The position numbers and the translations under genes were made by a program. The notes beneath the pieces are model-generated. The model was not told the origin of the DNA, searched no databases, and saw only the letters and a list, made by a program, of their open reading frames with translations. From Fomes fomentarius (lineage: Eukaryota; Basidiomycota; Agaricomycetes; Polyporales; Polyporaceae), in the NCBI GenBank assembly GCA_022606135.1, contig JABYQN010000003.1, positions 2,976,001 to 3,040,000 of the forward strand: a stretch of DNA of 64,000 nucleotides, written 5' to 3'. Below, piece after piece: positions 8,272 through 28,900 of this stretch; position 1 is the stretch's first letter, and the number at the start of each line of letters is the position of its first letter.

Positions 8272-10023
8272 ATGTCGTCTGACGGTGATGCAAGCATAGT
8301 TGCGGACTATCTCAGTCTGTCAGTACATCGTTCAATCGCACTCCCTCTGTACCGTTCTGATCGCGAAAATTCATGAAGCGCTATCGAAAACTACTGTGTC
8401 TACTCTGCCTCTGGTCAGCATTTTCCGCATCAATTCATCTAGTCCTCCAAGATCTGACAGAGATGGTTTATAGCGTTGTTCATATACGACTACATTGTCA
8501 CATTCTCCGACGAAGTGAGACTGTTCTGGGGACGCAGATGGACCGGTGCTACCCTCCTGTTTTTTCTAAACCGATACGTCTCTCTTGGTTATTATGCTGT
8601 TGCCCTTATCTCGCTCCCCGCACCACACCTAGTTTGTTTATCCCCTGTTTATGATCAATTTTATCACCCGACTGAAACGTGACTTCAGAGGTTTGACTGG
8701 GTTTGCTCAAGTAGTGGGCACAGTGCTCACGATGCGTTGTAGCTGTATAGCGGTCGAAAATGCTACCGAGATCTTAGAGGTCTTTCCATATCTGGTGTGG
8801 GCAGGTACGCTTCCTCACTCTCTTGTTATAGGGTATGTATGACTGTGATGTATAGCATTCTCTGCGCTACGCGCGTTTGCCCTGAGCAGGCGGTATGTAC
8901 TCTCCACGCTGGTCTTTCTGTTATCCATTGTCCCAGTAGCCCTGAACCTGGTATGTCTCCCACCGTGATCTCTTGATTGCAGCCCATGGTTGACGTCTTT
9001 GCTAGACCGACTTCTATGGACTAACAACCACGACGGTCACCTCTGGCGTTTGTGAATCAGCGGACAGGATAACACCGAAGGAGATCAAAGGGTGAGAGTG
9101 TTGTATCTTCGAATTCAGGCCATTCTAAAGCGTGCTCCACTAGGTGTAAGTGTATCAGCGAATACCACCTCATTGCAATCAGGCTCTCACCGGATACGAA
9201 TTGATTCAGTCACCATCGCGTCGCGAGGATCCCTGATCCTAGCGGATCTAATCCTCATTGTTACCACATATGTCATGTTGTCAAGGAATACAACCTCTCT
9301 ATCCGTAGATTCCTTTGCTGGCGTGCTTGTACGTGATGGTATGTCACTCACTCACCTTGCTATCCCCTTATAAATGGCGTATTGCTGTTGACTAATAAAT
9401 TGTCTGCAGGAACGTTATACTTCATGTAAGGATATCCCCTGATGGGCGGGTGATCTTAGTCTCAGTCTTTAATTTCCTAGATGTCTCCTAATCATCAACA
9501 TCCTACACCTTACTTTCACAATTCTATCAGTGAGGCGACGCTGTCTATGCCGTTTTTCTTTGAAGCTCACTTGTGTCTCATGCCGAAGATCGCAGAAACG
9601 GCTGAATCGACAAGTTTCGCCATCATTTACAGTGAACCGTACGTAGTAGTGCTTAGTTACCTTCCGGCTACTGGAACATCCGCTGACAAAGCCAGTTGTG
9701 CACTACCCTTTTGCTTGTACAGCTTGACGGCGATTCTGATCTCGAGGTTCTTGCTCAATCTGCAGGCGGTCAACCACCAGGCACTGCACCTCGACTCACT
9801 TAGCGATCGGAGCATCTCGCAAAATCATACACTAGTGTTTGAGCATGTCGTTGGGTCACTTGGATCGTATGTAGTGGACCATAATATGGACATGGGAAAA
9901 TCCAGTACCACTAACTTGACAGTACCGGAAACGGACCCGATCGAGCTCGAGGGGAGACCCTCAAGTTCGCATGTCACTGAGGGAGCACTGGTCAGCGGGG
10001 ACACACAAGGAATATGTGTATGA
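8272..10023 (+). CDS. DUF6533-type multi-pass membrane protein, copy A
   Basis: Thirteen exons give 343 residues: 8272-8318, 8379-8413, 8474-8631, 8689-8690, 8743-8804, 8856-8950, 9006-9091, 9144-9145, 9210-9338, 9410-9425, 9481-9529, 9589-9638, 9723-10023. Every intron is GT-AG and 44-84 nt long. Exons 4 and 8 are 2 nt each and are required for frame. The DUF6533 signature is visible: FIYDYIVTFSDEVRLFW, TGATLLFFLNRYVSLGYY. It is followed by hydrophobic segments (AFSALRAFALSRR, LILADLILIVTTYVML, LLIINILHLTFTILS) and a Ser/Asp/Glu-rich cytosolic-looking tail. The family is an abundant basidiomycete group of membrane proteins without known function. Same-strand neighbour of copy B; the two share structure but are diverged. 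Confidence 0.85.
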
Positions 10024-10788
10024 CTACTGTAATAGCAGTTTGCTTACTCTTGTCGAGGTACAGCGTACATTTATGTAACATTCAGTGAAACAGTATTCGC
10101 CAGATGTCCCGCACTCTGTACCGTCTAGTTCAAGTTCGGGATTCGAATCACCTCAAAGAGTCGCAGGTTCATCCGCTGTAATCGGCACTGGCTGCGGACT
10201 GTGGCATGATCATCTGATTCATCCATATGTTCATCCACGATCCACCGAACACCCACTACGTTCAGATGTACGCTCGTGGCGGTGTGCCATCAAGTATTAT
10301 ACTGGCGCGGCTATGCCAGGGATCACAATGATCATAGAACAGGTATTGTAGAGTCCTTTTCCCAGAACGCTGCAGTGCTGTTCCGCCAATAACTGTACTA
10401 AGTCACTCTTCTCATTTGATAGATCTCATCACAAACTGAGTTCAATTCTGCGCAAACCTTGATCTTCTTCGTTGAGCATATGACTGACTATGAGGCGCCA
10501 CATCATCTCTACACAGTCAAGGTTAGGAGCCAAGGTCCCCTTAGCAGGCTCTAGGCCGAACGTCAGCCGACTCCACCATGACATTTGGGGTGATGATGTT
10601 GTCTATGCTCTCTGGGCTTTGAGGAGGATCAACGAGGCTCGACGTCGGGACCTCGCATGCACAGGACCCACCGAAGTATCAATGCTAAAGTCTCGAGTTA
10701 TAATGCGACGCTGAGACAGTTGACTCCAACTTCCTTCTTTGAGACCTCGACCCACCCCCTCGTTATAAGCTCTGTCACCATCGATAGC
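10024..10788. other. intergenic, no gene seen
   Basis: This 765-nt gap lies between two same-strand paralogues. Short open frames here lack family resemblance. It holds the promoter of copy B. Confidence 0.45.
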
Positions 10789-12561
10789 ATGTCATCTCAG
10801 AGCCCCTATAGTGAGATAATATCGGAGTATGACAGCCTGTGAGTGCGTCCCCTCCTCACTGGCGATGCGCATCTCATGCTAGTTCCACGACCCGGGAAGC
10901 CTCGTCAATAACTACTGTGCGGTGGCTGGGATCGGTAAGTCTCGCGCCTTCTTTGCGCTCTATTACATTCAAGCACCAACACATTTACATCCGGGATATG
11001 CACTGCCAGTGCTCTTTCTCTATGACTTCGTTGTCACACTCGTTGATGAAGTGACCTACTTTTGGGGAAGCAAACCAACGGGCGCCACTGTCGTGTTTTT
11101 TCCTAACAGATATACTGCCCTCTTGTACACGATATTCTACTTGGTCATGGGCTTTGCTCCGTGCACCGAGAACTCGGTACGCTGCCTCTTTTGCATATGC
11201 ATTGATCGTGCAGTTTCATTTGGTAGCGATATATATTGCTTCAATAACAGAAGTGAGTAGCAGTACCCTCTCTCAGTCGGGTTGTTGCTGACTCGTTTTT
11301 CTCTTATCAGCTGCGCTGTGCAAATCAAGGCTGCCATATGTGTTCAAATGACAATGTATCTACTATGGGCCGGTACATCCCTCTTTTGTCATTTACGCTA
11401 GCTGTCTCGACTGATCTCATCACTGGCAGTGTTCTCTGCACTTCGCGCGTACGCCCTGAGCAGGAAAGTGCTCATTTCTTGCTTAGTCTTCGTCCTTTCG
11501 ATAGTAGTCGTATGCACAAACCTAGTGAGCTCTCAGGCATTACTGCGTTTATACTACTGCCACTCACTAGGAGCACACTTAGGTCGACGTCTTTGGCTTC
11601 TACAGAATTACATGTATCCCGGAGCTTGCGGGGGTATGCACTTCCGAAGACACTATACCTCCGAAACTGGCTCACTGGTACGTGAAACATGATCATTTTC
11701 TCTATTACACACTTCACTGAAACCTATCTAGGTGTCAATACTGTTCACTCACCTGTTGAATTTTGCTAATGCGACTATCTTTTTGATAGTCACAATTGCG
11801 GCCCGAAGCTCTCTAATGGCGGCAGACATCGTCCTCATCTCAATAACATGGGCACTACTTGGTCGACGCACTTCCATGTCTTCGGAAAACACATTGACTC
11901 GCGTGATGCTACTTGATGGTGAGTTACTACTACCTATACGGTTGCCCTTCAACAGCGGAACGTGTCGGCTTACTAACCTGGGTTTGAAGGGGCGATATAC
12001 TTCGTGTAAGCTTTGTGTATGCGGATACATACCTTTTTATGGTACTGATAGCTGAATGCTTTAGATCCCTATTTGTATTGAATGCGCTTCACCTCTCGTT
12101 CACTCTTGTATCCGTAAGTGGCAAGCACCTATTTTCTCGGACTGAAGCTTATCACCAGCTTGCACTTCTCAGGAATGGCAACCAGCAACTCAGAATGAGA
12201 GTAAGATTGTGCTTTTCATCGAGCCGTGAGTCGAAGTTCGAGCTGAGAGAGCTGACAGGAGCTGAAGGGAACTGTTACTAGGCTGACCTCAATTCTTATA
12301 TGGCGATTCATGCTTGCGCTGCAATCAGTCAATAACAGCAACGTCAACCTCGACTCCCAGGGCGTTGTACACTCGGAGGGGATCTCTTCTCATGCAGACT
12401 CAATCATCTTCGAGCGTGTAGTTGGTTCTCTGAGCTCCCTTGCATCGCGTAGTACTCTCAGAACGAACGACACCGCCCATTTGGGAAGTATGGAGTTGCA
12501 CGACAATGACTCACCTATAGTCCTTGATGGTGTTGAATGTCTGGCATTGGAAACCAGGTAG
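10789..12561 (+). CDS. DUF6533-type multi-pass membrane protein, copy B
   Basis: Thirteen exons give 344 residues: 10789-10838, 10900-10934, 11010-11176, 11251-11252, 11311-11372, 11430-11524, 11583-11677, 11732-11733, 11790-11918, 11990-12005, 12065-12113, 12173-12225, 12282-12561. Exon lengths 35, 2, 62, 95, 2, 129, 16 and 49 equal those of copy A at the same places. The domain core reads FLYDFVVTLVDEVTYFW, TGATVVFFPNRY, then VFSALRAYALSRK, LMAADIVLISITWALL and FVLNALHLSFTLVS. The tail contains IIFERVVGSLSSL, a motif also seen in copies A and D. Function unknown. The intron before the first 2-nt exon is 74 nt, the longest of the pair, and contains alternative AG sites. The call as a family member is firm; the exact first microexon could be placed differently. 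Confidence 0.83.
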
Positions 12562-13315
12562 TAGGGACATGTTCATGAAGGATCACATATAATACTATGA
12601 ACAGCTGCGAGAATCTCTGACACATACAGGGACAGCGTCGACGTACATAGTATTATCACTGGGATGAAGAGCAAAATTTGCGCGCATGTGGGGCAGATGT
12701 GTCTTCGTAACTTTTGTCTAAGCTGTCATTGCCAAATGAACATGTTGCTCTCCAACCATGCTGCCCACATAAGGAGAGGTGAACGTGACACGCTCCAATT
12801 CAACTCCTCTGATCATCAGCATTAATTTCTCGAGCACCTCCTCCTGGACCAAAAATAGTATCAGTCCAAGTATGGTTCGCGAGAATCCCAATATGACAAT
12901 GAGCTGTGAACAACAGACATCTGTGAGCCTTTTGATGGGCCCGAATGCGCGGTCGTACTAGTGCGCTATAGCCGCCATCGGCCACGGACAGCAGTTGGTT
13001 CTGTTACGTCCGTTCAATCTTCGTGTAGCAGAGGTGCATCCGCTCTCAGGCGCAGTGCAGAAGAGTGCAGATCGCAGCATCGTAGTATAATCACTGCATC
13101 GGTCCCACACGGAGCACACATCAATCTGTGGAGAAGCGCGGCGTGGCTGAGAGGACACATGGAATTGATGGTTCGGGTTCCCACCGGACAGCCTTCATGC
13201 CTCAGTGCGTATGCAGTCGAGTCGTGAACTGATTATTCAATCTCTAGGTCTCGATGGACTCATGAGGGGTGAATTATCTGTTCAAAAACCACCAGCAACA
13301 GGACCGTATCCGAGG
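12562..13315. other. intergenic between convergent genes
   Basis: This 754-nt stretch lies between the 3' ends of copy B and the second HET gene. I see only a short inverted pair, ATACTATG near 12593 and CATAGTAT near 12645, of doubtful meaning. Confidence 0.4.
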
Positions 13316-15455
13316 TCAACCGTCTCGCCTCGTTTGAAACAAAACCCTACCCGTCGAGCGGTGCCAACGCTTGAATGAGATGTCCATAATGTAAGTAGAA
13401 GCAGGATTGAGCGAGTCGGGCACGAAGGAAAGGGTTATCTCGATCGCAACCGCCCACCGCGATGAGTCGATTGGCGTGAAGCTGCGCTGGTAGTCCGGCC
13501 AATGCATGATATGGTCTGTTGCACAGTCATGGTCCACGTCCGTGCTCGCGTCCGGATCCCTTCTACTCGCCTGCTCTGCGACGGAGACCATAGCCCAATG
13601 AGGCCCTAGTGCATCCGGGACGACATGACCGCCGGCCCGGCTACGCACATCGACGCCGGGATCTGAAGACATCCTGGCAGGGCCCCCCGCTATTGAGCAG
13701 CGGCCAAAATGCACCAGGATGTCATGCAGACCAAACCAGTGCGGATTGAACATAGTAAGCGTCGCAGCAGGCTGGCCATGCCATGGGAAACGCATGCTGG
13801 CGGGGAGCGAGAGCTTGAATTTTGCCTTCTGGAGGTTGTCGATTAGGCGCTGTGGGATTCGGAACGGTGTCGCTCTACCCCTGTTCATCAGTAGATGCGT
13901 GGTAGGTCGAGTTAGGGGGATGTGTGTGAGGTAAATGCTCCTCCACGTGAAACCGCTGAGTGTACCCGTGGTCGAGCGTACGATGTTCAAGTTGATTAAG
14001 CGCCATCGTAGTTGACCACTGTAGATGCAAGGGTGATAGAGCGGACGGGTAGGATCCACCGCACGGTCGCACGGTCCCAACAGAAGGCCGAGGGGCTGGT
14101 TGTCCCGCGACGAGAATAGGATAGCGATGGAGATGCCATTCACTTCAACGACAGGAATATGAGCATGAACCCCATAGGATGTGACGTTGAATGTGGGGAC
14201 ACCAGCCGCCTCCGAAGAGACTTCAGTGTCTTGGCCCGGGCGAATCATGTTATTGATCAACTGGACGTGTGGGCGGGCACCTGTCAGCCGCTGTACAAAT
14301 ACGGACGAGTGATCGGTTGCGATATAGGTTACTAACACTGAGAGACAAGTCACGATCTGGCAACTGTTGCACTGCGTGACGAGTGGAAACATGAGCTTGA
14401 CCTCCGTATGGGAGTGCCATCATCGCTGTTGTGGGAGATTCAACAAAGTCTAGCGGGGATGACTTCGGAGTCCAGAACTGGTCTTCTGTTGGCTGAAGAA
14501 TAATCAGCATTTCATTTGCGATGAACAAGAATTGTCGATGCTTTACCTGAAGATCCTCCAGTGTATGCGGGTCGAAATCGGTAGCCCGTGCCTCCGCAAA
14601 ATGGCTTGGGCTGGGGGCAAAGAGATACATCTCGTGATCGTCAAGACGATCCCAAGGGTCGATGGTGGCCGGACACACATCCAGCACATGCCCCCATGCA
14701 AAGAGAGTGGTGTCGATCGTACCCTTCATAATCTCCTCCTGGAGACGTCGGAAAGCCTGTCGGCCTTCGCCGTACAACGTTGGCATGTTGACCTCAAATA
14801 TCCCCATGAGACAGTACGCCTCATCCTCTGGGCGAGTTGTAACTCGGTTTGATGCCCATGACATGCGTCGAGCGATGCTGATGTCTCGGACTTCTTCTTC
14901 CAAGAGCAGCACGGCAACAGGGATCCAAGTGATATCAGCGAGGAGGGATGCGAGATCGGCCTTGGTACCCAAGATCTCCCAGTGAGACGAGACGAAGACG
15001 ACATGGTCAGGCGCGATGAGCTCCTGCAACGTCCAGCCACGAGTGAACCATCGGCTTTCCCTGAATGCCGAATCGATATCCTCCAGAACGCTGTCGGTAG
15101 GGACGTCTCGAAGGTATGCGAAACACACCTCTGCTAGAGCATAGTAGGTGTACATGGAATTGATCGCCTCCGATAACTCCGCACTACTGGTCTTGTCGAT
15201 GCAGCAAGTATCGTTCCAGATCCACTTGTACCCATGACGTTCTGCGAGCATGCAGGACTCTTTGACCTTGCTAGTGGAGCGATCACGAGGATTCTCGCCA
15301 GTCGCTTCGCACTCGAGGCGGTGGCGTTGGGTGTCTTGGAAACTCTGTTCCGTTGGATCCCAGACATGGGATAGGATGGCGTAAACCTGATTCCTAGCGG
15401 CTTCAACCGTCGGAAAGAACGTCAGCTCTGCGCGAGCCGTACTGAGCAACCACAT
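13316..15455 (-). CDS. HET-domain protein with DUF8212-like region
   Basis: Three exons (15455-14547, 14492-14402, 14337-13316) give 673 residues. The N-terminus MWLLSTARAELTFF followed by VYAILSHVWD is the usual start of basidiomycete HET-E-like proteins, which supports the start at 15455. Further HET motifs are GYKWIWNDTCCIDKTSSAEL, NSMYTYYALAEVCFAYL, SRWFTRGWTLQELIAP and RRMSWASNRVTTRPEDEAY. The last leads into CLMGIFEVNMPTLYGEG and ends with LFAWG, the block known as DUF8212. Introns 1 and 2 are 54 and 64 nt with GT-AG ends. The C-terminal 340 residues (TSYGVHAHIPVVEVNG onward) resemble the variable tails of this family; no NACHT or WD40 repeats are present. Likely a self/non-self or stress cell-death regulator by family inference. 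Confidence 0.88.
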
Positions 15456-16069
15456 GAGCGGATGGCTAAGCTGTCAGACATCGAAATCAGCTTTTGGTTG
15501 GGGAGGCTTTTAGTCTGACAGAGACAAACGTGGGTTTCCTGGGAGGATGTTGTGTGGTATTTAGGGAGGAGCGGGCACAAAGATGTGTGTACGAACCTTG
15601 AAGCGAGTAATGATGCCGCCAGCGGCGCACTGTCTTGCTCAGTGAACAAATCCTAGAGGATGGCCGCACTTCGGTCTGCAAAAGGAAGTAACGTATGTGG
15701 TGAATTCGTGATGAGACGAAGCAATACAATTCTGTGAGTTGCAGCAAGAGGAATCGATGCAATGTACACACTAAAGCCGCTGGAAGCGGAGTTTGAGCAT
15801 GTTCATAGCCCGCTCCCGCTCCGACTTTCAGACGCCGCTTGTGTTGATACCAAGCAAGCGCTGGGCAGGTGAACTTGAAGTTGCTCTGAACAAACGGGAG
15901 GACATCGAATCCCGATACTCATCATTGAGCATACAAAATATACAGCAGGGTAAGATCTATACATTCCGCCGCTGTTCACGCTACTCATACATAATCCAGC
16001 GCGCATGCCAATCTAATAGCCACTATAGCGGCAAAGGAACGAATATCCACGTCCGACGGCTCTACCCCA
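15456..16069. other. promoter side of HET gene and 3' flank of monooxygenase
   Basis: No gene seen in 614 nt. It includes the upstream region of the minus-strand HET gene and the downstream end of the monooxygenase gene. Confidence 0.4.
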
Positions 16070-18755
<2,686 letters not shown>

Positions 18756-20989
18756 GATGGGAGGAGGATGTGAACAGAGGTAGTGCGAAGGGACACTTCC
18801 TGAGCCAGGCTCTATAAGTATCTCGACGATGCCTCCAACGACCGCCTCATCACCCTTCGGTGGACAAGGTTTGGAACGATTGGCGAGCGGCGTCGCGTAT
18901 AACGCGGCATGTGCAGTAAGCTGGCTTCACGCAGCACACACACATAGGTAGCATCGTGAGAATCGGAAGACTGGGAATGCGCGAAGGCTGACTGAAAGTG
19001 AGCGGTCCAACAACGCATTAAGCTGATGGGTCTCATGGAATGGCGTTCCCCGCAGCGAGAGAGCGCGAGAAACAGCCAATTTGAGGTAGAGTTCGCGCTA
19101 TGGCGTAGGTATGGCAAGCGACGTGGCATTTGCGCGGTGCTGAGGAGGCGATCAAGCGCTAGTGAGAATAGAAGGAACGTTGTATCAGTATTGGGTTGCG
19201 CGTGTATACGCCTACTTACTCGAATCAATGAGTTGCCTTCTATGTGACCCCCCCCCACACAGCCGAAATGTGCCCTCGGTGCATGCGACCCTGGGTCGCA
19301 GGATTCAGTGTTCGCTTTTGAGATTATGTTGAAAAGAGACTAGATGTGCTCGTCGATACTCGCAATGCCGCCCAAGAAGAATGACAGCGTTCCGAGAACC
19401 ACGAAGTACGCATAGAGGCGTCTACATCTCCGCTATTGCCATCTGACAAGGAATCTGACAAGGCTGCTCCGAGTCGATTGAGAGGAATCCGGCCACAGGA
19501 GGAGAAAGCATCGCGATTTCTATTTTCAGCCGTTTGTAATCGGAGATACAATGGCTGGTTGCTTACCAGGCTAGTATGGGGAGCGCCTTGGGAGGAGCCT
19601 CCATGCCTACGCATCCCAACGGCGGGGATGGACATCGCGCGCGCATTAGCGCGGGTGATATTCGGTTTGCACAAATGCTCGAGCAGCCTCCGTTCGTCGT
19701 GCGTCGCCACTCCAACTCGACGCTTGTCAGGTCCGGGGACAGTGATCAGCGAGCAGACTCAGTATAGCGGATGCATCCGCGAGGGATCCCAAGCACTACG
19801 GATGCATCCACTGTAAGAGAGATGTATTACCGTTTATGTACTATACAATTGATATGCCACCTGCCACCACGCAAAGAGCGCGGATGCGTCCGTAGAGGTT
19901 GGGATCACTCGCGGATGCATCCGCTATACTGAGAACCTACGATTCAGTACGAGGTCAAGTGAGCACTGTGCCATGTGAGGCACATGTCAAGTAACCTACG
20001 TAGCGAAGACGTCTGAGTACATCGGAACAGATGCGCCTATCCCAAACGTAAACGAGGTTGCCGGTGTGGTGCAGAGAGAGATTGTAGAGCATATCCATGG
20101 AGGCAGAACTACGCGGAGGTCACGACTGGCGGCTTCCCGGTATCCGCCGGCCCCTAACACAAGCACTACGCAGCACAAATGTGTCAGTACACTCCTCGCT
20201 TCCGTAACCGGCGGAGAGCTTACTGTGCAAGTTAGAGATTCCAATCCACATAGGAGGTCACATCCAGCTACGCCATCGGCATGATAAGATGGCTCCAGAT
20301 GAGATTGAAAAGCCATACCTGCAAGCCGTCGACGACCGAAAGCCATCGTAAGCGGGTAGTGATCAGAGGTTCAGGAAGGGTACAGCAGCATTATTTCCTT
20401 GCGAAGGATGGCTATTCGGTGTGTAGCATGCATCGCATGCGATGAACGCGCGATTATGAATGGGGTATGTGTCTTACCTTCAATATCCACCCCATTTGCG
20501 CACTGTTCATGTCAGCTGTGCGTCTCTTGCAGGGCGTAACGCTCACCTTAAAGCCTTGTAAAGGGCATGCACAGAGGTACTTCGCCGTCTCCGTCGTGCA
20601 CAGGGACCGCCTATATGATTTTCCTATCATCGAGTGCGCGGCCATCGGACATAATGCGAACAGTGTCTACGCCACCCCGATCCGACACAGGTCATCGCAG
20701 TTTGCTGGATAATTCATGGATGAGTAACAAGACATCATCGCGAGGGTGCTTCCAGGCTAGACTCCCGGATGCAGGATGGGAAGCGCGAGTTGCGAACAGG
20801 TCCAAACTCAAAATTTGCTCCAGATACGGTCTACGAGGAGATAGAGCGGAGTGCATCAGCACGTTTCGATGACAGATGTCCTTGCTAGCCTCATGGTTGG
20901 ACGATCAAAGCCGTCGTCCAGTAGCCTAGGATACAAAAGATGTGAGATTGTCGAGTGCTAGAGCAAAGGCCGCTTAAATTTACATGTAT
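18756..20989. other. long gene-poor interval
   Basis: I find no gene in about 2.2 kb apart from the inverted repeat at 19758-19933. A run of nine C lies near 19249-19257. Open frames are short and unlike known families. It includes the upstream region of the monooxygenase. Confidence 0.45.
19758..19933. mobile_element. MITE-like inverted repeat
   Basis: The two ends are near-perfect inverted copies of about 35 nt: the left arm begins CTCAGTATAGCGGATGCATC and the right arm ends GATGCATCCGCTATACTGAG, with one mismatch over the arms. The total length is 176 nt. A second, weaker inner copy (CACTACGGATGCATCC and CGGATGCGTCCGTAG) nests inside. No coding capacity. I see no clear target-site duplication at the outer ends, so the MITE assignment is inference. 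Confidence 0.55.
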
Positions 20990-23640
20990 AATATGAGTTC
21001 TCAATAACTTGAAGTGACTGCGAACGCTACTCGAAACCGACGCAACGCCCATAAGATGTTGGCTCTCAAGTGCTCCCATGACGGAGTCATCTTAGCCAGC
21101 TATAGCACTGAAGCTCGTTAGCACTTTGGTGCATATACGGTTCTGCGATACTCGCCTGTGGTGCACGAAGCTAGCAAATCGAAGGGAGCGAGTAAGCAAC
21201 AATGCGTATCTTCCAGGCTTGAATCCAAGACGTAGGAAGTCCAACTGCTTGTACGCAAGTTCATCGAGTTGATGGTGGTGGTTCGCGTGAGTCCATGAAC
21301 GTATGCCAGCAGGTGTGGCACTAGGCGCCTGTGAATCGAACCAGTTCGAATGTATGAGGGGAGCCTACTACTAACTTGGGCGATAGCATTCAAGTTGGCA
21401 AATACCTCCAACTCTGGCAAAGCACTTAGGTGCGATGATCTTTATTCCGGCTCAACCCACAATGACAACCTTTCACGATACCTCCCCCTCAACATTTAGT
21501 GGTCACGGTGTGGGGCCGCGGCAGGACTAGCGTATAGTAATCAGACTACTGGGTCCCTGATTGAGTCCAAACTGTCACTGCGACGAGGTTCGTGATAGGT
21601 CCCTTCCTCAGGGTTAGAGTCAGATGTGATTGGAGTGCCTGTGCTTTGCTGAAAGACGAGAGTTGCGATACGACTGGGCGAGCATCCGCTGAAACTCCCG
21701 CTAAGTTGGAACTCCCCTTCCGAGCTCTTCCGATGTGCTTCCTGAAGATCGAGAAGGAAGCGAGAGACGAGGGTGGAAGTGAACCTACGGTGATGCCTGT
21801 CAGTTTGAGAACTCAATGGAAGGGGCTGAAGAGCAGGTGCTCACACTTCGGTGAACACGGTTGCGTAGCCGTAGCTCAAGCTTTGGAAGGCGACGTGGAC
21901 CTGTAGGTGAACCATGAGTGTATAAGTGCAGTTCCCTTCATGTATATCAGAATGCGCACCGAGAAGAGCGAGAGGGTAAGGTGCAGGCAGTGCAGAGCCA
22001 GTAGGACCCTTAGAGTGATGAGAGATCAGTTCGAATGATACCACAAGAGAAAAGCAGCCCTTATTACAAGAAGTACAATGTTCCTGATCGGATATTCTCA
22101 GTTTTATAATCCAATGGGCAGATGAGATAGTAGATAGTAAGCGCACCATTGCGTAAGAGGACTCCTGCCAGCGACATGCTGTTTCTATTAGACACTGTCT
22201 CCAGAATCTCTTTGCGCGAGATCGTGGTCCAAGTTATAATAATGAGGAGGACGTCTGCAGTCATAAAGCATGTCCTGCATGCAATCACGACTGGGCACAG
22301 GTATGAGAACCAATGTTTGAGTCCACACCTAAACGGGACTCACGTCTAGCGTATAGAGTCAGTAGTGATTCAATGAGAAAGAGCTGACGGGTGAACGTAC
22401 ATGCGAGACAGCGAGAAGGGCATACCAGGATCCTTCACCGTACACCCAAATATAGGGTCATAGTAGCCCGTGAAACCAAGGGGATACAGAGCCTATCATC
22501 ATCTCATCAGTTGTCTCTCACTGGTGAATGAGAGGGCGAGAAATAACTGACGATGTTCGCAATCGGGGTGGCAACCGACAGGACGAAGATTAGGGCAGAC
22601 AGCGGCCTGCTCCTACTGAGCGCAAACCCACGGAGGGCCGCAAACACTGCGCGTTCGTGAGTATAAACGGTATCGATGCATATTGGAGGCACAAGAAAGG
22701 AAACAGAAGTACTCACCCGCCCAGGGTATATACTGAAGGAGGGTAAAGGCGAGAAGTGTCTTGGCAGCAAAAGCGCATCTAGCCCCACGTAAATCCAGAG
22801 AAAAGCATTTGGAGATAAAAGTACCTCTGGAGTCTCGGAGGTGAGTCCCAACAAAAATAAGCTAGAGGACCGCACTCAATGCTCACCTGATCTGGCATTG
22901 GCATGAATCCGAACATATTTGCGGTTCTCAGTACCAGAGACCAGTACCTGTTTACTACGAAGAGCGTGGTTGCCCCGATCGACCTCGATCGTGCATTCCA
23001 AAATAGGTCAATCTCCCTGTCCAGGGTGATGAGATATTCGTATACAACGAAAGCTTTGAAGTAATGAGATGGAGTTAGCAATCATTAACAAGAGACGCAG
23101 ATCATCTACCTGCGGATGCGACTCGTCCATACGAGTTTGCTGCACTATGTAGTATCCGACAGGTTCAGCACATCGAAAACAGGACGAGGAGTCCAAATCT
23201 TACAGGCTGAGATACTCAATGGCAACGCCTGCAGAGTCTGTATAGTCTGTGAAAGTCATGGTTGACTTTGAGAGTTGTCCTGTTGAAGAAAGATGAGTTT
23301 GGGGCCTCGCTCTGGTTTTATCTGGGCTAGTTATACGTAGCGAGGAACAGAACACGCCAAGTCGAACAAGTCGGTGAACATCAGAACTGAAAATGTCATA
23401 GCCACACAGTCTAGAACCCTCACTTTCGAGTTCTTTGGAAGTTGGGCACCCACCCTATGTCATCCTAAACTATGACACTTCTTGACAACGGTACAGCCCA
23501 AGGTGTGCAATGGTTCGGCGAGTTAGTGAGCCGGAGAACCAATATCAATCAGCTGTACGCACTCCACTCCCCAACTCCTGATTGAGCAAGTCAGTATGCA
23601 GAGCATGTAGTTACGTTGTTAGCGAGCCCGGTTGAATGAT
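20990..23640. repeat. segmental duplication, copy 1 (contains DUF6533 copy C)
   Basis: This block and 26320-28900 share gene C/E and flanking non-coding sequence. Shared stretches 3' of the genes include GAACGCT...CGCAACGCCC, GAAGCTAGCAAATC, GCGAGTA and ATCGAACCAGT in the same order. A shared GAGCCGGAGAAC lies upstream. Boundaries are approximate. Confidence 0.6.
21541..23259 (-). CDS. DUF6533-type multi-pass membrane protein, copy C
   Basis: Thirteen exons give 343 residues: 23259-23204, 23144-23110, 23053-22887, 22826-22825, 22778-22717, 22646-22552, 22492-22401, 22345-22344, 22290-22147, 22083-22068, 22008-21960, 21900-21845, 21796-21541. The core reads FVVYEYLITLDREIDLFW, IGATTLFVVNRYWSLVL, QRCAFAAKTLLAFTLLQYIP, VFAALRGFALSRSRPLSALI. 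ACRTCFMTADVLLIIITW, YFLVLLALHCLHLTLSLFS and LVSRFLLDLQEAHRK follow. Microexon AG (22826-22825) and AC (22345-22344) keep the frame. Copy E, 5.3 kb away in the same orientation, is the closest relative. Function unknown; membrane location by hydrophobicity. Confidence 0.85.
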
Positions 23641-24119
23641 GTTGACTTACGACTTACAATGCATCAGTCAAACCATGCCAAACGTTGACCATGATGAATG
23701 TCAAGTCAGTGATTATCGCCATCAGCGTCAGTGGTAGCACATGCGAGTAACACCGGTGGCTGGACATGAACAGGGCTTCCAGTCCTCAGACCAATGACAT
23801 ATAGCTCCCGAACACTGCCTTCATGTCCAGTGAAGATAAGTATGGAATCGGGATTCGGGTGCAGTTGCTCCCTAATCGTCCCGGCACCTAGCAGTGACCC
23901 CCTAACCTCCATTGTTTTCCAGCAGGCAGATAGTGATATCCACTCAAGTGAAGGGTACTGTTACATCTGAGGAAGACTTTCTCGGAGATGACTGTTTTGA
24001 ATAAATAGCTGACCACTCGATGTCCTCCAATCTAACTAGACATGACCTCCGACAAAAGAGAAATGGCCGATCTATCCCCTCCGGCAATGAACTTAAATAC
24101 CCCGTTATTCCTCGTCCAT
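23260..24119. other. intergenic, no gene seen
   Basis: This 860-nt stretch lies between copies C and D. It holds the C promoter and the D 3' flank; nothing else is recognised. Confidence 0.45.
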
Positions 24120-25800
24120 CTACTTGTTTCTGGGCCGCTTCTCTTCCAAGGGGATGCCTTCCAGTAGCACGCTGTTCTCCACGATATCCACATGAGGTAC
24201 GTTCTCCGAGTCCCCGAAACTCATCGTCGTGGAAGCGAGAGATCCGACGACCTGCTCGAACACAAGCCCGCTCGAAGCTGACACCTCGTCAAGATGGACG
24301 TCAACCTCGAACAGGCTCAGGTCCCGAGACGTGCGCTCTGCTGCTTGAAGATCGAGGAGGAATCGTGATACGAGTATTGCCGTGACGCTAGAGAACCATC
24401 CTTAAGATTTCAGCCTGATGTCAGGGCTTAGCAAGTGCTTACGGATCTGTGAAATTGCTCACGTAGCTGGCGTTTTGCCAGGCCGGGTGATACTGAAGAA
24501 TGTGAGTCAGACACAGACACGCGGGCGAGCCACCTGGCAGAGGAAATGCATACTGAGAGCATTGTGAGAACGAGATGCAGAGTGTTCATCAGGAGCAAGA
24601 CACTAGCGGAACAACGTGAGGATCGAATCTCGGTACGTGGGTGCAGCAGCATACACAAAGTATATAGTACCTGCCAGCAAGTTGTTAGAGGCTGTAACTT
24701 CTCGGTTCATCTGGGAACCGCTCCTCACCGTCTTGCTGCAGGACACTCGTGAACGTCCTCCTCCGCGATACCCATTTGACCTTGTACCGTCGAGGGATTG
24801 TGGACCATGTAATCCAATTCAGCAGCGTGTCCGCAGTCATTAGACAGGTGCGGGACACGATCACATCTTAGGGCGTACAAATAGTCAGCATAATCGATGA
24901 GGAGATCAGTTTGCGAAGATGTACGACTGCATGGATATTAGTTCAAGCGAGGGACGAAGAGAGGATCAGCGACGCACATTTTCGAGACAAACGGTGAAGT
25001 ATTATCAACACCCCGGCAGCCCATCTCCTGAACGACGACTCCGGATAGCCCATTGCCAAACCGACTCTGTCCAAAATTATTATTCAAAATTTTCCTCTCC
25101 CCTTGCGAATGTAAAAATACCAGATTGATGCCAATGGGAACGATAGAGAGTAGGAACACAGGGATGCCAAGCGCCAGACTTCTTTTCAATGCGAATGCGC
25201 GCAATCCGGAAAAGACTATGCGTGGATGCTTCACTCCAGCAGCAAAAGATTGATATTGAGAGAGACGCACCTGCCCATGTAAGATATGCAAACATCTTCA
25301 GTCCGAAATCCACTCTCAACACAAAGGAACAGCTACGGTGCGTGATAAGCACGAAGGGGTCCGAGTCCCTGTGAACTTTGTCCTACCTCTATAATGGACG
25401 TCAAATTCTAGTCATGAGAGGACAGAATGACGATGAAAGAGGTGCTCACCCGATCCGACATGGTGATATAGTGGGCCGCGTCGACCACTGCATACACGAG
25501 ATAGAAGTATCGGTTCAAAAAGCAAAGAATCGACGCGCCGTTGACTTTGCGCTTCCAGAATAAGAAAAATTCTTGGTCGAAAGTGATACAATACTCGTAG
25601 AAGATGAGAGCTGGGAGGGCAGGAGGTAAGCTCAAGCCCAACAGCGGTGGGGACGGCCTTACCGGTGCAGGCAATGTCACAGTCTCTCAGGATTTTCCTG
25701 TCGTGGAATGAGGCCAGGTCCCAATTACGAAGTTAGAGACGTACACGCCTGCATACTCGGAGATAACGTCTCCAATGTCGGAGGCATCTGCTGTGGCCAT
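24120..25800 (-). CDS. DUF6533-type multi-pass membrane protein, copy D
   Basis: Thirteen exons give 340 residues: 25800-25745, 25697-25663, 25610-25450, 25388-25387, 25332-25271, 25215-25121, 25066-24978, 24926-24925, 24866-24729, 24670-24655, 24602-24554, 24492-24443, 24387-24120. The core reads IFYEYCITFDQEFFLFWKRK, NGASILCFLNRYFYLVY, VFSGLRAFALKRS, VSRTCLMTADTLLNWITW, LLLMNTLHLVLTMLS, ILVSRFLLDLQ and FEQVVGSLAS. The two 2-nt exons are AG and TC. It lies between copies C and E, but its sequence is more distant from them than they are from each other. Function unknown. It ends in a charged tail (EEKRPRNK). Confidence is high for the family and good for the splicing, since all pieces join in frame. 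Confidence 0.84.
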
Positions 25801-26319
25801 CGTCTATTGGAAGGCGGATGTCGGATACAGAAGGAGTTCGGTACAAGTGCTGAGCTGACCATGTTCTTATGATGAAACACCGAGCTTTCTGTGGACAAAC
25901 TAAACCCAATGGTCTAGTCGCGGGGATAAAAGGGTATCCTGGCGTAAGGTAAACTCTATATCTCGTCTACAGCATTTCAGGTGAAAAGAATCTTGTGTCG
26001 CGTCTTGAGGTAGAACCTGTATTTACTCTACAGATGATGATTACAGTCCGCGCTGTGTGTCTTGCCGTTCCCCGTAGTCAGCCGGGTATGGTATGAATGG
26101 AACGGGCCTGGAATAGAGACGTGGCTGGACCTGAAACACTTGAATACGTTCAGCACCCAAAAGGGGAATAGGGCGGGGCAACAAGAGTCATACCAGTAGC
26201 TTACTACAAGTCGGCCGAACTGAGTTCGATCGGCATATTACGACCATTAGAGCGAATACGAGGAGAGAGAGCGGGGCGTATCAGTGCATGTAGACCACAC
26301 ATGACAAATTTGTTAGCCT
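25801..26319. other. intergenic, no gene seen
   Basis: This 519-nt stretch holds the upstream region of copy D and then unremarkable sequence up to the duplicated block. Confidence 0.4.
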
Positions 26320-28900
26320 CACAACAGTGACTTCGAACGCTGGTAACCGGCACAACGCCCGTAAGAACAGGGCTCTAGAGTAGTAGAAATACTTTCACTT
26401 CCACTTCACGTTATTGTAGCAGGTTGCACACTGAGGTTCGTTAGCCCTTTGGTATATATCTGCCAGTGGAGGATACGGTTGCAATACTCACCGCCAGCAG
26501 TATTCAAACAAGGACAGAACGGTCCAGGAAGCTAGCAAATCTCATGTAGCGAGCGAGTAGGCAGTAGTCCCCTTCATAATGCACGCATCGACGACCTGGT
26601 TGTATGCAAGTTCGAGTGCGAGTTAGTGATTCTCGGCGAAACTTGAAGTTGAACAATTTGAGTCAACGTGGGGCCATGGCACATGGGCGTCTATGGGTCG
26701 GCTCAAATCGAACCAGTGGGGATCTGCGAGAGACTCAGACTCAGATGGACTTGAACTTGGAACATAAGTTGATCACAGTCCCGTATACGGTACAAGAACA
26801 ACTCCCTTGCCTAGCGTAAGTAACAGCCTGTCAGTGATGCAGTGATTCTCACGCTACTACACTGACAGGAAGCAGCTGCTGGGAGGCTATCCCCTGAGAT
26901 CCGAGTCGTCGCCGTGGTGAGGTTCGTGATACTGAGTCTCTTCCTCGGCGTTAAAAGTAGATGTGAGTGGTGACCTGATGTTCTGCCTAAATACGGGCGT
27001 TTCGATATGACCGGGTGAGGATTCGTTGAAGCTCCCGCTGCGCTGGAAGTCACCGTCAGCACACTTCCGATGAGCTTCCTGAAGATCGAGAAGGAAGCGG
27101 GAGACGAGTACGGCAGTGAAGCTGAATTATGGTCCCTATTAGTCATTAAAATCAAATGCACTGCAAGAGAAGTGCTTACACCTCGGTGAACACGGTCACG
27201 TAGCTGTAGCTCAGACTTTGGAGGGCGACGTGTATCTGCAAGTAAACCACAATCCATTTGGCGAAGTTCCGGTCATCTTGTTACATGGGTTAGCGGTAAA
27301 TTGCGCACCGAAGAGAGCGACAGGGTGAGGTGTAGGCCGTGCAGAAGCAGCAAAACCCTAATACAAGCATTTAACATGCGCTGCGGATACAGCAACAGAG
27401 TATAAGCTCATCTTACAAGAAGTACCATGTTCCTATTCAAGTTTTGACGTTCTCAGTACAATATTTGCGTCATTTATGAGGGGATGACGCACCATTGCGC
27501 AAGAGTATCCCTGCCAATGAGGTGGTATTCCCGCTACTAGTAGACACAAGCCTACGAATCTCCTTGCGCGAGACCGTGGTCCAAGTGATTATTATGAGAA
27601 GGACATCTGCGGCCATGAAGCATGTCCTACATGCAATCACGACTTCACATGAGAGTAATTGTCAGTAGCAGCCGTTGCATAACATATAAGAAACTCACGC
27701 CTGAAGGGTATGGGTGAGGAGTATGGAAGGAGGTAATGGGAGAACGTACTTGCGAGACAGCGAGAGGGGCATACCGGGGTCGATCACCGTACATCCAAAA
27801 AGAGAATCATAGTAACCTGTGAAGCCAAAGTGGTACAGAGCCTAGGATTACCGATATCAGAATTAGTCGCAGAGGCTCTTATGCCTTCATGATATAACTC
27901 ACGATGTTCACGGCGGGTGTGGCGATAGATAGGACGAAGATCAAGGCCGACAGTGGCCTGCTCCGGCTGAGCGCAAACCCCCGAAAGGCCGCGAATACTG
28001 CGGAACCTTGGTTAGTGATGTAAAGCATCGGCACGGGAAGTACTCACGAGCCCAAGGTATATACTGAAGGAGCGTAACAGCGAGGAGTGCTTTAGTAGCG
28101 AAAGCACATCTGTCCTAGTATGTCAGGACACATCCGGAGACAAGCGTACCAAATTATGAGTACCTCTAGAGCATAGGCAATCATTATCGAAGAGATCAAG
28201 CCAGAAGGTAAGCACCGAACGCTCACCTGATTGGACATCGGCATGAATCCGAACATGTTCAAGACCCTCAGAATCAGAGTCCAATACCGAATCACTATGA
28301 AAAGTACGGTTGCGCCGGTCGAGCGAGAGCGCGGACTCCAAAAAAGGTCAATCTCCCTATCGAGGGTGATGAAATACTCATACATCACGAATGCTTCATA
28401 TTTGGGTGAATAGTCAGCAAAACTAAGAGCACATAGTAAATACCTGTGGATGCAACCCGTATGTATGAGTTTGCTGCACTAGTATTCAACCAGTTCAGCC
28501 CAACGGGAAGACGAATAGCCGGGGATGTCTTACAGGCTCAGATATTCGTTGCCAAGGCCTGCAGAATCGAGATAGTTCGGGGAAGCCATGGAGAGTGTGC
28601 GTATGTGAGGAATTGAGCGAAGCTGAGTTCTGAGACTCAAGGCTGTAGAGTTTACTCTGCCCGATATATGTACCACGAGAAAAGCCGAGTACACTGCCCG
28701 TTCAAAGTCTTGTTAGACAAGAATTGACGGCTTCATCGCCAATGTCACCGTTGGAACTCCGATGCTTGGTGACACGGGGTATCCACACTGCTACATATTC
28801 GGGAATCCTGAGAGCCGGAGAACTAGCGAGGATGTGGTACGGACTTCGCTGCTTCACCCCCTGGTGAAGCAGGTCTTGCATGTGGTTGTATCGATGACTG
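26320..28900. repeat. segmental duplication, copy 2 (contains DUF6533 copy E)
   Basis: Counterpart of 20990-23640, same orientation, about 5.3 kb period. Similarity covers the gene, about 550 nt of its 3' flank and patches upstream. Divergence in the non-coding parts is heavy, so the event is not recent. Confidence 0.6.
26887..28589 (-). CDS. DUF6533-type multi-pass membrane protein, copy E
   Basis: Thirteen exons give 338 residues: 28589-28534, 28478-28444, 28393-28227, 28165-28164, 28109-28048, 27997-27903, 27841-27750, 27700-27699, 27642-27493, 27432-27417, 27357-27309, 27235-27180, 27121-26887. The core reads FVMYEYFITLDREIDLFW, TGATVLFIVIRYWTLIL, QRCAFATKALLAVTLLQYIP, LFAAFRGFALSRSRPLSALI, ACRTCFMAADVLLIIITW and LVSRFLLDLQEAHRK. 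Microexons are AG (28165-28164) and GC (27700-27699). Exon 9 is 6 nt longer than in copy C; the last exon is 21 nt shorter. An alternative AG (CTAG) 4 nt upstream of the chosen exon-5 acceptor could start exon 5 with Asp and remove the need for the first microexon in this copy only. The homologous copies do not offer that option. Confidence 0.84.

Follow-up and report, generated by a model that had tools for sequence, protein, structure and literature searches.

Probable two-nucleotide coding exons at two homologous sites in DUF6533 genes of Fomes fomentarius, as supported by sequence and comparison

The window analyzed here is a stretch of 64,000 nucleotides (nt) from the genome of the wood-rotting fungus Fomes fomentarius (40.9 Mb, 24 contigs), positions 2976001 to 3040000 of contig C3, and it holds five genes, designated A to E, of the DUF6533 family, whose many members are predicted to encode membrane proteins. 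Main-type DUF6533 genes in this genome very probably carry two real, constitutive coding exons of only 2 nt each, at two homologous positions that we call site 1 and site 2. A sequence-only reading of the window had proposed two such frame-keeping exons in each of the five genes, and the proposal was backed by the family alignment, by paralogues with a single intron at one of the sites, and by two public gene models. By sequence and comparison the 2-nt exons are well supported, and we infer from these their presence in the mRNA. Each is shorter than 3 nt, has its own AG before it and a GT or GC after it, and lies between introns of normal size.

The Pfam profile of the family, PF20151, scored at no fewer than 150 genomic places, five of which are window genes A to E. 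The five window matches exceeded the Pfam curated cut-off, which places the genes in the DUF6533 family, and the annotated proteins P0001, P0002, P0013, and P0024 reached 45 to 58 bits, compared with a cut-off of 24.1. Many of the matches were located on contig C3 at about 2.5 to 3.4 Mb, a region that includes the window. Gene models were obtained with a purpose-written spliced aligner that fits a protein profile to DNA, with introns of 42 to 250 nt and no lower bound on exon length, and that was iterated over 70 loci plus five pieces of the window. Models scoring >380 numbered 85, leaving 84 genes (five in the window) after removal of one duplicate; this set is a part of the 150 PF20151 places and not a random sample of them. 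The background level of the aligner, given by matches on the opposite strand, was at most about 200, with one partial match of 245. Two runs were made, one with GT donors only and one with GC donors allowed and a raised intron cost, the latter because several of the remaining genes show AG/AG/GC at site 1.

In the GT-only run, a 2-nt exon was called at site 1 in 42 of the 84 genes (43 calls; L043+ has two), at site 2 in 53, at both sites in 32, and at either site in 63, while the GC-allowed run gave 49, 51, 33, and 67 genes, respectively. Both runs agreed on site 1 in 39 genes and on site 2 in 49, and their union comprised 52/84 genes at site 1, 55/84 at site 2, and 69/84 with at least one 2-nt exon. 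Away from the site windows, exons of this size were rare (five in the GT-only run, two of them adjoining the sites, and one in the GC-allowed run). Within the GT-only set, the exon preceding site 1 measured 161, 164, or 167 nt in 36 of the 43 calls and the exon after it 62 nt in 37 of them, and the introns beside 2-nt exons ranged from 46 to 105 nt; among genes scoring ≥850, the median intron on either side was 56 to 58 nt. Most site 1 exons read AG or GG, and most site 2 exons AT, TT, or CT. The donor that follows the exon in the GC-allowed run was GT in 41/49 cases and GC in 8/49 at site 1, and GT in 50/51 and GC in 1/51 at site 2. The GC donor seems to stand directly after the 2-nt exon of site 1 (AG/GC), for example, in L009 (plus strand), L037, L038, and L049.

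Paralogues with fewer introns show what the two nucleotides are. Six genes (L021, L024, L025, L026, L028, and L029) have at site 1 a single intron of 48 to 73 nt, too short for two introns, and their next exon is 64 nt long, that is, 2 + 62 (in L029 it is fused to the following exon); in L028, for instance, an intron of 48 nt precedes an exon of 64 nt. Similarly, site 2 of L071 holds only one intron, of 59 nt, and the exon upstream of it measures 91 nt (89 + 2). Fewer-intron relatives thus carry the same nucleotides, six at site 1 and one at site 2, and since the two nt are kept in the neighboring exon, they are simply part of the coding sequence in genes that lack one of the introns. L022, in which one intron of 53 nt is followed by an exon of 70 nt, was left out of this count. 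Other candidates for intron loss were rejected, namely, L034 at site 1, where the raw sequence reads exon 164, intron 74, AG, intron 75; L044 at site 2, where it reads exon 89, intron 49, AA, intron 67; and L031 at site 2, in which a possible AC 2-nt exon is present. An intron-free site 1 in L015 (second gene) and L017 was likewise discarded, both having become 2-nt models once GC donors were allowed. In an unrooted protein tree (quick search, trait columns excluded), the six single-intron genes of site 1 fall within one clade of nine, with a Shimodaira-Hasegawa-like approximate likelihood ratio test (SH-aLRT) value of 94, the other three being of unclear state. One change per site suffices on this tree among the genes of clear state (59/84 at site 1 and 57/84 at site 2). 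The absent intron may have been lost or not yet gained, since the unrooted tree fits both.

Public gene models provide a further line of evidence. Nine of the 10 Fomes-labelled public proteins were mapped back to family genes (P0048 matched none), and five public models were re-tested with exons of <4 nt forbidden. Two of the five, P0001 and P0069, could not be exactly rebuilt under this restriction; with regard to mature mRNA, these two protein models support the 2-nt exons only indirectly. For P0001 (gene D), 311/311 residues were recovered with the AC at 22344-22345 and 309/311 with such exons forbidden; for P0069 (L052), the figures were 305/305 with AG at site 1 and 302/305 without it. 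P0044 was rebuilt exactly either way, with a higher score when AG was used. The public models of the DUF6533 family compared here are often wrong around the 2-nt exons: at site 1, P0001 skips the 2-nt exon together with 46 nt of the next exon, and P0057, P0064, and P0071 are broken around the sites (P0064 is close to none of the genes aligned). P0001 (gene D, 21700-23260) and P0007 (gene E, 27067-28589) leave the family model exactly around the two sites. Among 75 database proteins, eight are intact at both sites, seven of them non-Fomes, as judged from lengths alone and not from exon structure. Indel rates in public proteins (site 1 broken in 50/71 and site 2 in 48/67, loop controls c120 in 36/72 and c200 in 60/67) were not usable as a control.

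An alternative explanation is that a single intron of about 105 to 140 nt spans each site, that shifted donors or acceptors keep the frame, and that the 2-nt exons are chance occurrences of AG-NN-GT. The strict motif YAG-N2-GTRNG was found in 24/43 calls at site 1 (0.1 in shuffles) and in 31/53 at site 2 (0.3 in shuffles), and at the other spacings k from 0 to 12, it gave only 0 to 5 calls. The set had been preselected for a 2-nt exon, so the scan shows signal quality rather than discovery; a chance AG-NN-GT motif was rejected on its outcome. In a neutral test applied to 63 genes, the junction columns of the profile were zeroed, gaps were made cheap there, and exons of <4 nt were forbidden anywhere. 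The score fell in 54 of the 63 genes when these exons were forbidden, and with the full profile, it fell in 63/63. Shifted splice sites as a general explanation were rejected by this test, with site 1 of gene E kept as an exception. The aligner does still find a path when exons of <4 nt are forbidden, but the forced paths in the five window genes differ from one another and bring insertions or odd donors, whereas in the 2-nt path the column, the phase, and the lengths of the exons on either side are all conserved. Moreover, the intervals are about twice the family median intron (60 nt), and the six paralogues with one short intron at site 1 still encode the two nt. All told, we consider the single-intron explanation quite unlikely.

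In the window itself, the 10 dinucleotides listed in Table 1 are all present in the sequence where the sequence-only reading had placed them, with AG before and GT after each one. Eight of the 10 lie in the best path of the alignment seeded with gene E, and site 1 of genes A and E has rivals. The claim of flanking introns of 46 to 74 nt was borne out, as was that of matching exon lengths (35, 62, 95, 16, and 49 nt), except that the 62-nt exon of gene E becomes 67 nt in its rival model.

Several observations weigh against two constitutive 2-nt exons. At site 1 of gene E, a single 112-nt intron with the acceptor ctag/GACAG is in frame and is the one used in P0007. At site 1 of gene A, both runs preferred another intron pair, and the pair proposed earlier needs two weak donors, GTTTGT and GTTTGA; the same column carries a 2-nt exon in other genes of the family. 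In the neutral test, 9 of the 63 genes tied, and of the 32 genes with both exons, only 21 kept two, while 10 kept one and 1 kept none. Neither run called any 2-nt exon in 15/84 genes, and the aligner missed those of L034 (site 1) and L044 (site 2), which were found by hand reading. No intron-free relative was confirmed among the 84 genes, L012 and L051 having first looked so at site 1. As for public models, P0069 joins the flanks directly at site 2, and P0024 has an M at site 2 that cannot derive from the sole 2-nt candidate there. P0024 also aligned at 343/359 residues with tiny exons and at 344 without them, a difference that decides nothing. The models underlying the aligner profile contained 2-nt exons, and the profile scores therefore lean toward them; the first window run was seeded with gene E, typed including its 2-nt exons, and hence favors them as well, which makes the neutral-junction test the fairer one. 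Finally, the 10 window cases had been counted as independent, which is wrong, the genes being paralogues and their 2-nt exons inherited, with one change per site needed on the tree.

Regarding mechanism, recursive splicing, twin introns (stwintrons), and ordered removal had been suggested. Ordered removal of two ordinary introns would suffice and is the most likely mechanism, whereas the other two fit poorly, given that every intron possesses a GT (or GC)...AG pair of its own and that no strict k = 0 junction, with GTRNG immediately after YAG, occurs (0/43 at site 1 and 0/53 at site 2). Each intron would be defined singly, by intron definition, and two ordinary introns of 50 to 60 nt would be removed in sequence, given that two splice sites 2 nt apart could hardly be engaged simultaneously. 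Once the first intron is out, the two nt would be part of a long exon, and the second intron would then be an ordinary substrate. Stepwise removal by intron definition has been proposed for a 1-nt exon in PMC4674806, which also cites a potato case where the second intron leaves first. The introns adjoining the 2-nt exons look ordinary: the fraction of donors matching GTRNG was 0.79 to 0.82 for the upstream introns, 0.55 to 0.74 for the downstream ones, and 0.76 for 350 other introns. This agrees with ordered, intron-defined removal, in which the upstream intron may leave first, although the lower downstream match fits that order only weakly.

That stwintrons or zero-exon recursive splicing take the place of true 2-nt exons appears extremely unlikely. 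The two introns are adjacent and in series, and in genes whose 2-nt exon reads AG, splicing to the second AG would reduce the exon to 0 nt; bare AG/GT is in fact seen in 24/43 site 1 calls, because the 2-nt exon there is AG. Such a 0-nt exon would break the frame, however, and both introns are complete at donor and acceptor, so that, judged on these two elements, they fall outside the stwintron class. Somewhat less improbable, but still unlikely, is that the 2-nt exons are used but poorly spliced, with skipping as a major outcome that lowers or regulates family expression through frameshift and decay. Skipping would amount to removing one intron of about 105 to 140 nt, with the frame shifted. 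The direct joining in P0069 would fit this, as would the downstream donors of site 2 (GTRNG in 55% of 38 introns, versus 76% of the 350 others) and the potato exon cited in PMC4674806, which 33% of transcripts skipped once it had been shortened to 1 nt. On the other hand, the natural 1-nt exon described in PMC4674806 was spliced accurately, and the P0069 model may be a mere prediction error.

In order to put the DUF6533 exons into perspective, we compared them with published systems. The Fusarium CYP621A cytochrome P450 (PMC12940212) is likewise fungal, with flanking exons out of phase, an AG-N-GT motif, an interval about twice a normal intron (139 nt there), fewer-intron relatives as length markers, and public models that are wrong at the site. 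It differs in having 1 nt at one site in 20 orthologues of an ascomycete genus and in being supported by 18 RNA sequencing reads as well as by a relative free of introns, whereas the Fomes exons have 2 nt at two sites per gene in dozens of paralogues of one basidiomycete genome, with single-intron relatives only, and are known from genomic DNA. The 1-nt exons of Arabidopsis APC11 (PMC4674806) and of plant APC11 and VPS55 (PMC8831610) are also sub-codon exons required by the frame and missed by annotation, but they come from plants, concern one or few genes, are experimentally proven, and have intron-free relatives. In fungal stwintrons, too, two introns are removed one after another, but one of them interrupts a splice element of the other, while the DUF6533 introns have their own ends and 2 coding nt between them. 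The P450 microexons of Phanerochaete chrysosporium (PMC1184071), likewise from a white-rot basidiomycete, are small exons among introns of 45 to 55 bp, and the shortest one reported is 6 bp. A phrase search of the literature did not find the wording of a 2-nt exon, yet PMC12940212 cites exons of 2 to 5 bp in Arabidopsis, Drosophila, and human. Ultra-short exons are known, with 1-nt ones published in plants and Fusarium; what is unusual is their number in one family and their occurrence twice per gene. If confirmed in RNA, a rarity represented by a few 1-nt exons would become a natural collection of about 100 2-nt exons in one genome, in which the single-intron paralogues would be built-in controls and which would allow parallel measurement of removal order, skipping, and sequence limits. 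The 2-nt exons also explain errors in several public DUF6533 models and show where to look for them.

Where public models are wrong, the sequences of the predicted seven-transmembrane (7-TM) proteins stay wrong too. P0002, a homologue from Polyporus arcularius, is modeled with seven long helices, the fourth of which is followed by a hairpin. C86, R111, and C154 are invariant in 28 sequences (alignment A2), the first cysteine being located where helix 3 starts, the second in the hairpin, and the arginine 25 residues past the first cysteine. The site 1 exon supplies two-thirds of the codon right before the invariant cysteine where predicted helix 3 starts, and site 2 is near the start of predicted helix 5; a frameshift would destroy helices 3 to 7 at site 1 and helices 5 to 7 at site 2. 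With its seven long helices and two cysteines so placed, the predicted model conforms to a fold like that of G protein-coupled receptors (GPCRs). A search of the PDB gave no sequence match at E values of up to 1, and structural matches of the P0002 model included bacteriorhodopsin, the yeast receptor Ste2, and many class A receptors (best Foldseek E value, 4.1e-4). DUF6533 proteins are predicted to be an expanded set of 7-TM receptor-like proteins, a fold that alone shows no function. It is conceivable, albeit very unlikely, that the 2-nt exons of this family rank among the largest such collections of any genome and that their inclusion or skipping acts as a frame switch silencing or selecting members of these GPCR-like receptors.

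Table 1. Positions of the 2-nt exons, candidate 2-nt exons, and selected exon-intron units in the window
Feature	Position	Strand	Remarks
Gene A site 1, candidate 2-nt exon AG	8689..8690	+	less certain; best path uses other introns
Gene A site 2, 2-nt exon GT	9144..9145	+	best path; introns 52 and 64 nt
Gene B site 1, 2-nt exon AA	11251..11252	+	best path; introns 74 and 58 nt
Gene B site 1 unit: exon 167, intron 74, AA, intron 58, exon 62	11010..11372	+	
Gene B site 2, 2-nt exon GT	11732..11733	+	best path; introns 54 and 56 nt
Gene C site 1, 2-nt exon AG	25387..25388	-	best path; introns 61 and 54 nt
Gene C site 2, 2-nt exon TC	24925..24926	-	best path; introns 51 and 58 nt
Gene D site 1, 2-nt exon AG	22825..22826	-	best path; skipped by P0001
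Gene D site 1 unit: exon 167, intron 60, AG, intron 46, exon 62	22717..23053	-	
Gene D site 2, 2-nt exon AC	22344..22345	-	best path; used in exact P0001 rebuild
Gene D site 2 unit: exon 92, intron 55, AC, intron 53, exon 144	22147..22492	-	
Gene E site 1, candidate 2-nt exon AG	28164..28165	-	in-frame rival: 112-nt intron ending at 28115
Gene E site 2, 2-nt exon GC	27699..27700	-	best path; introns 49 and 56 nt

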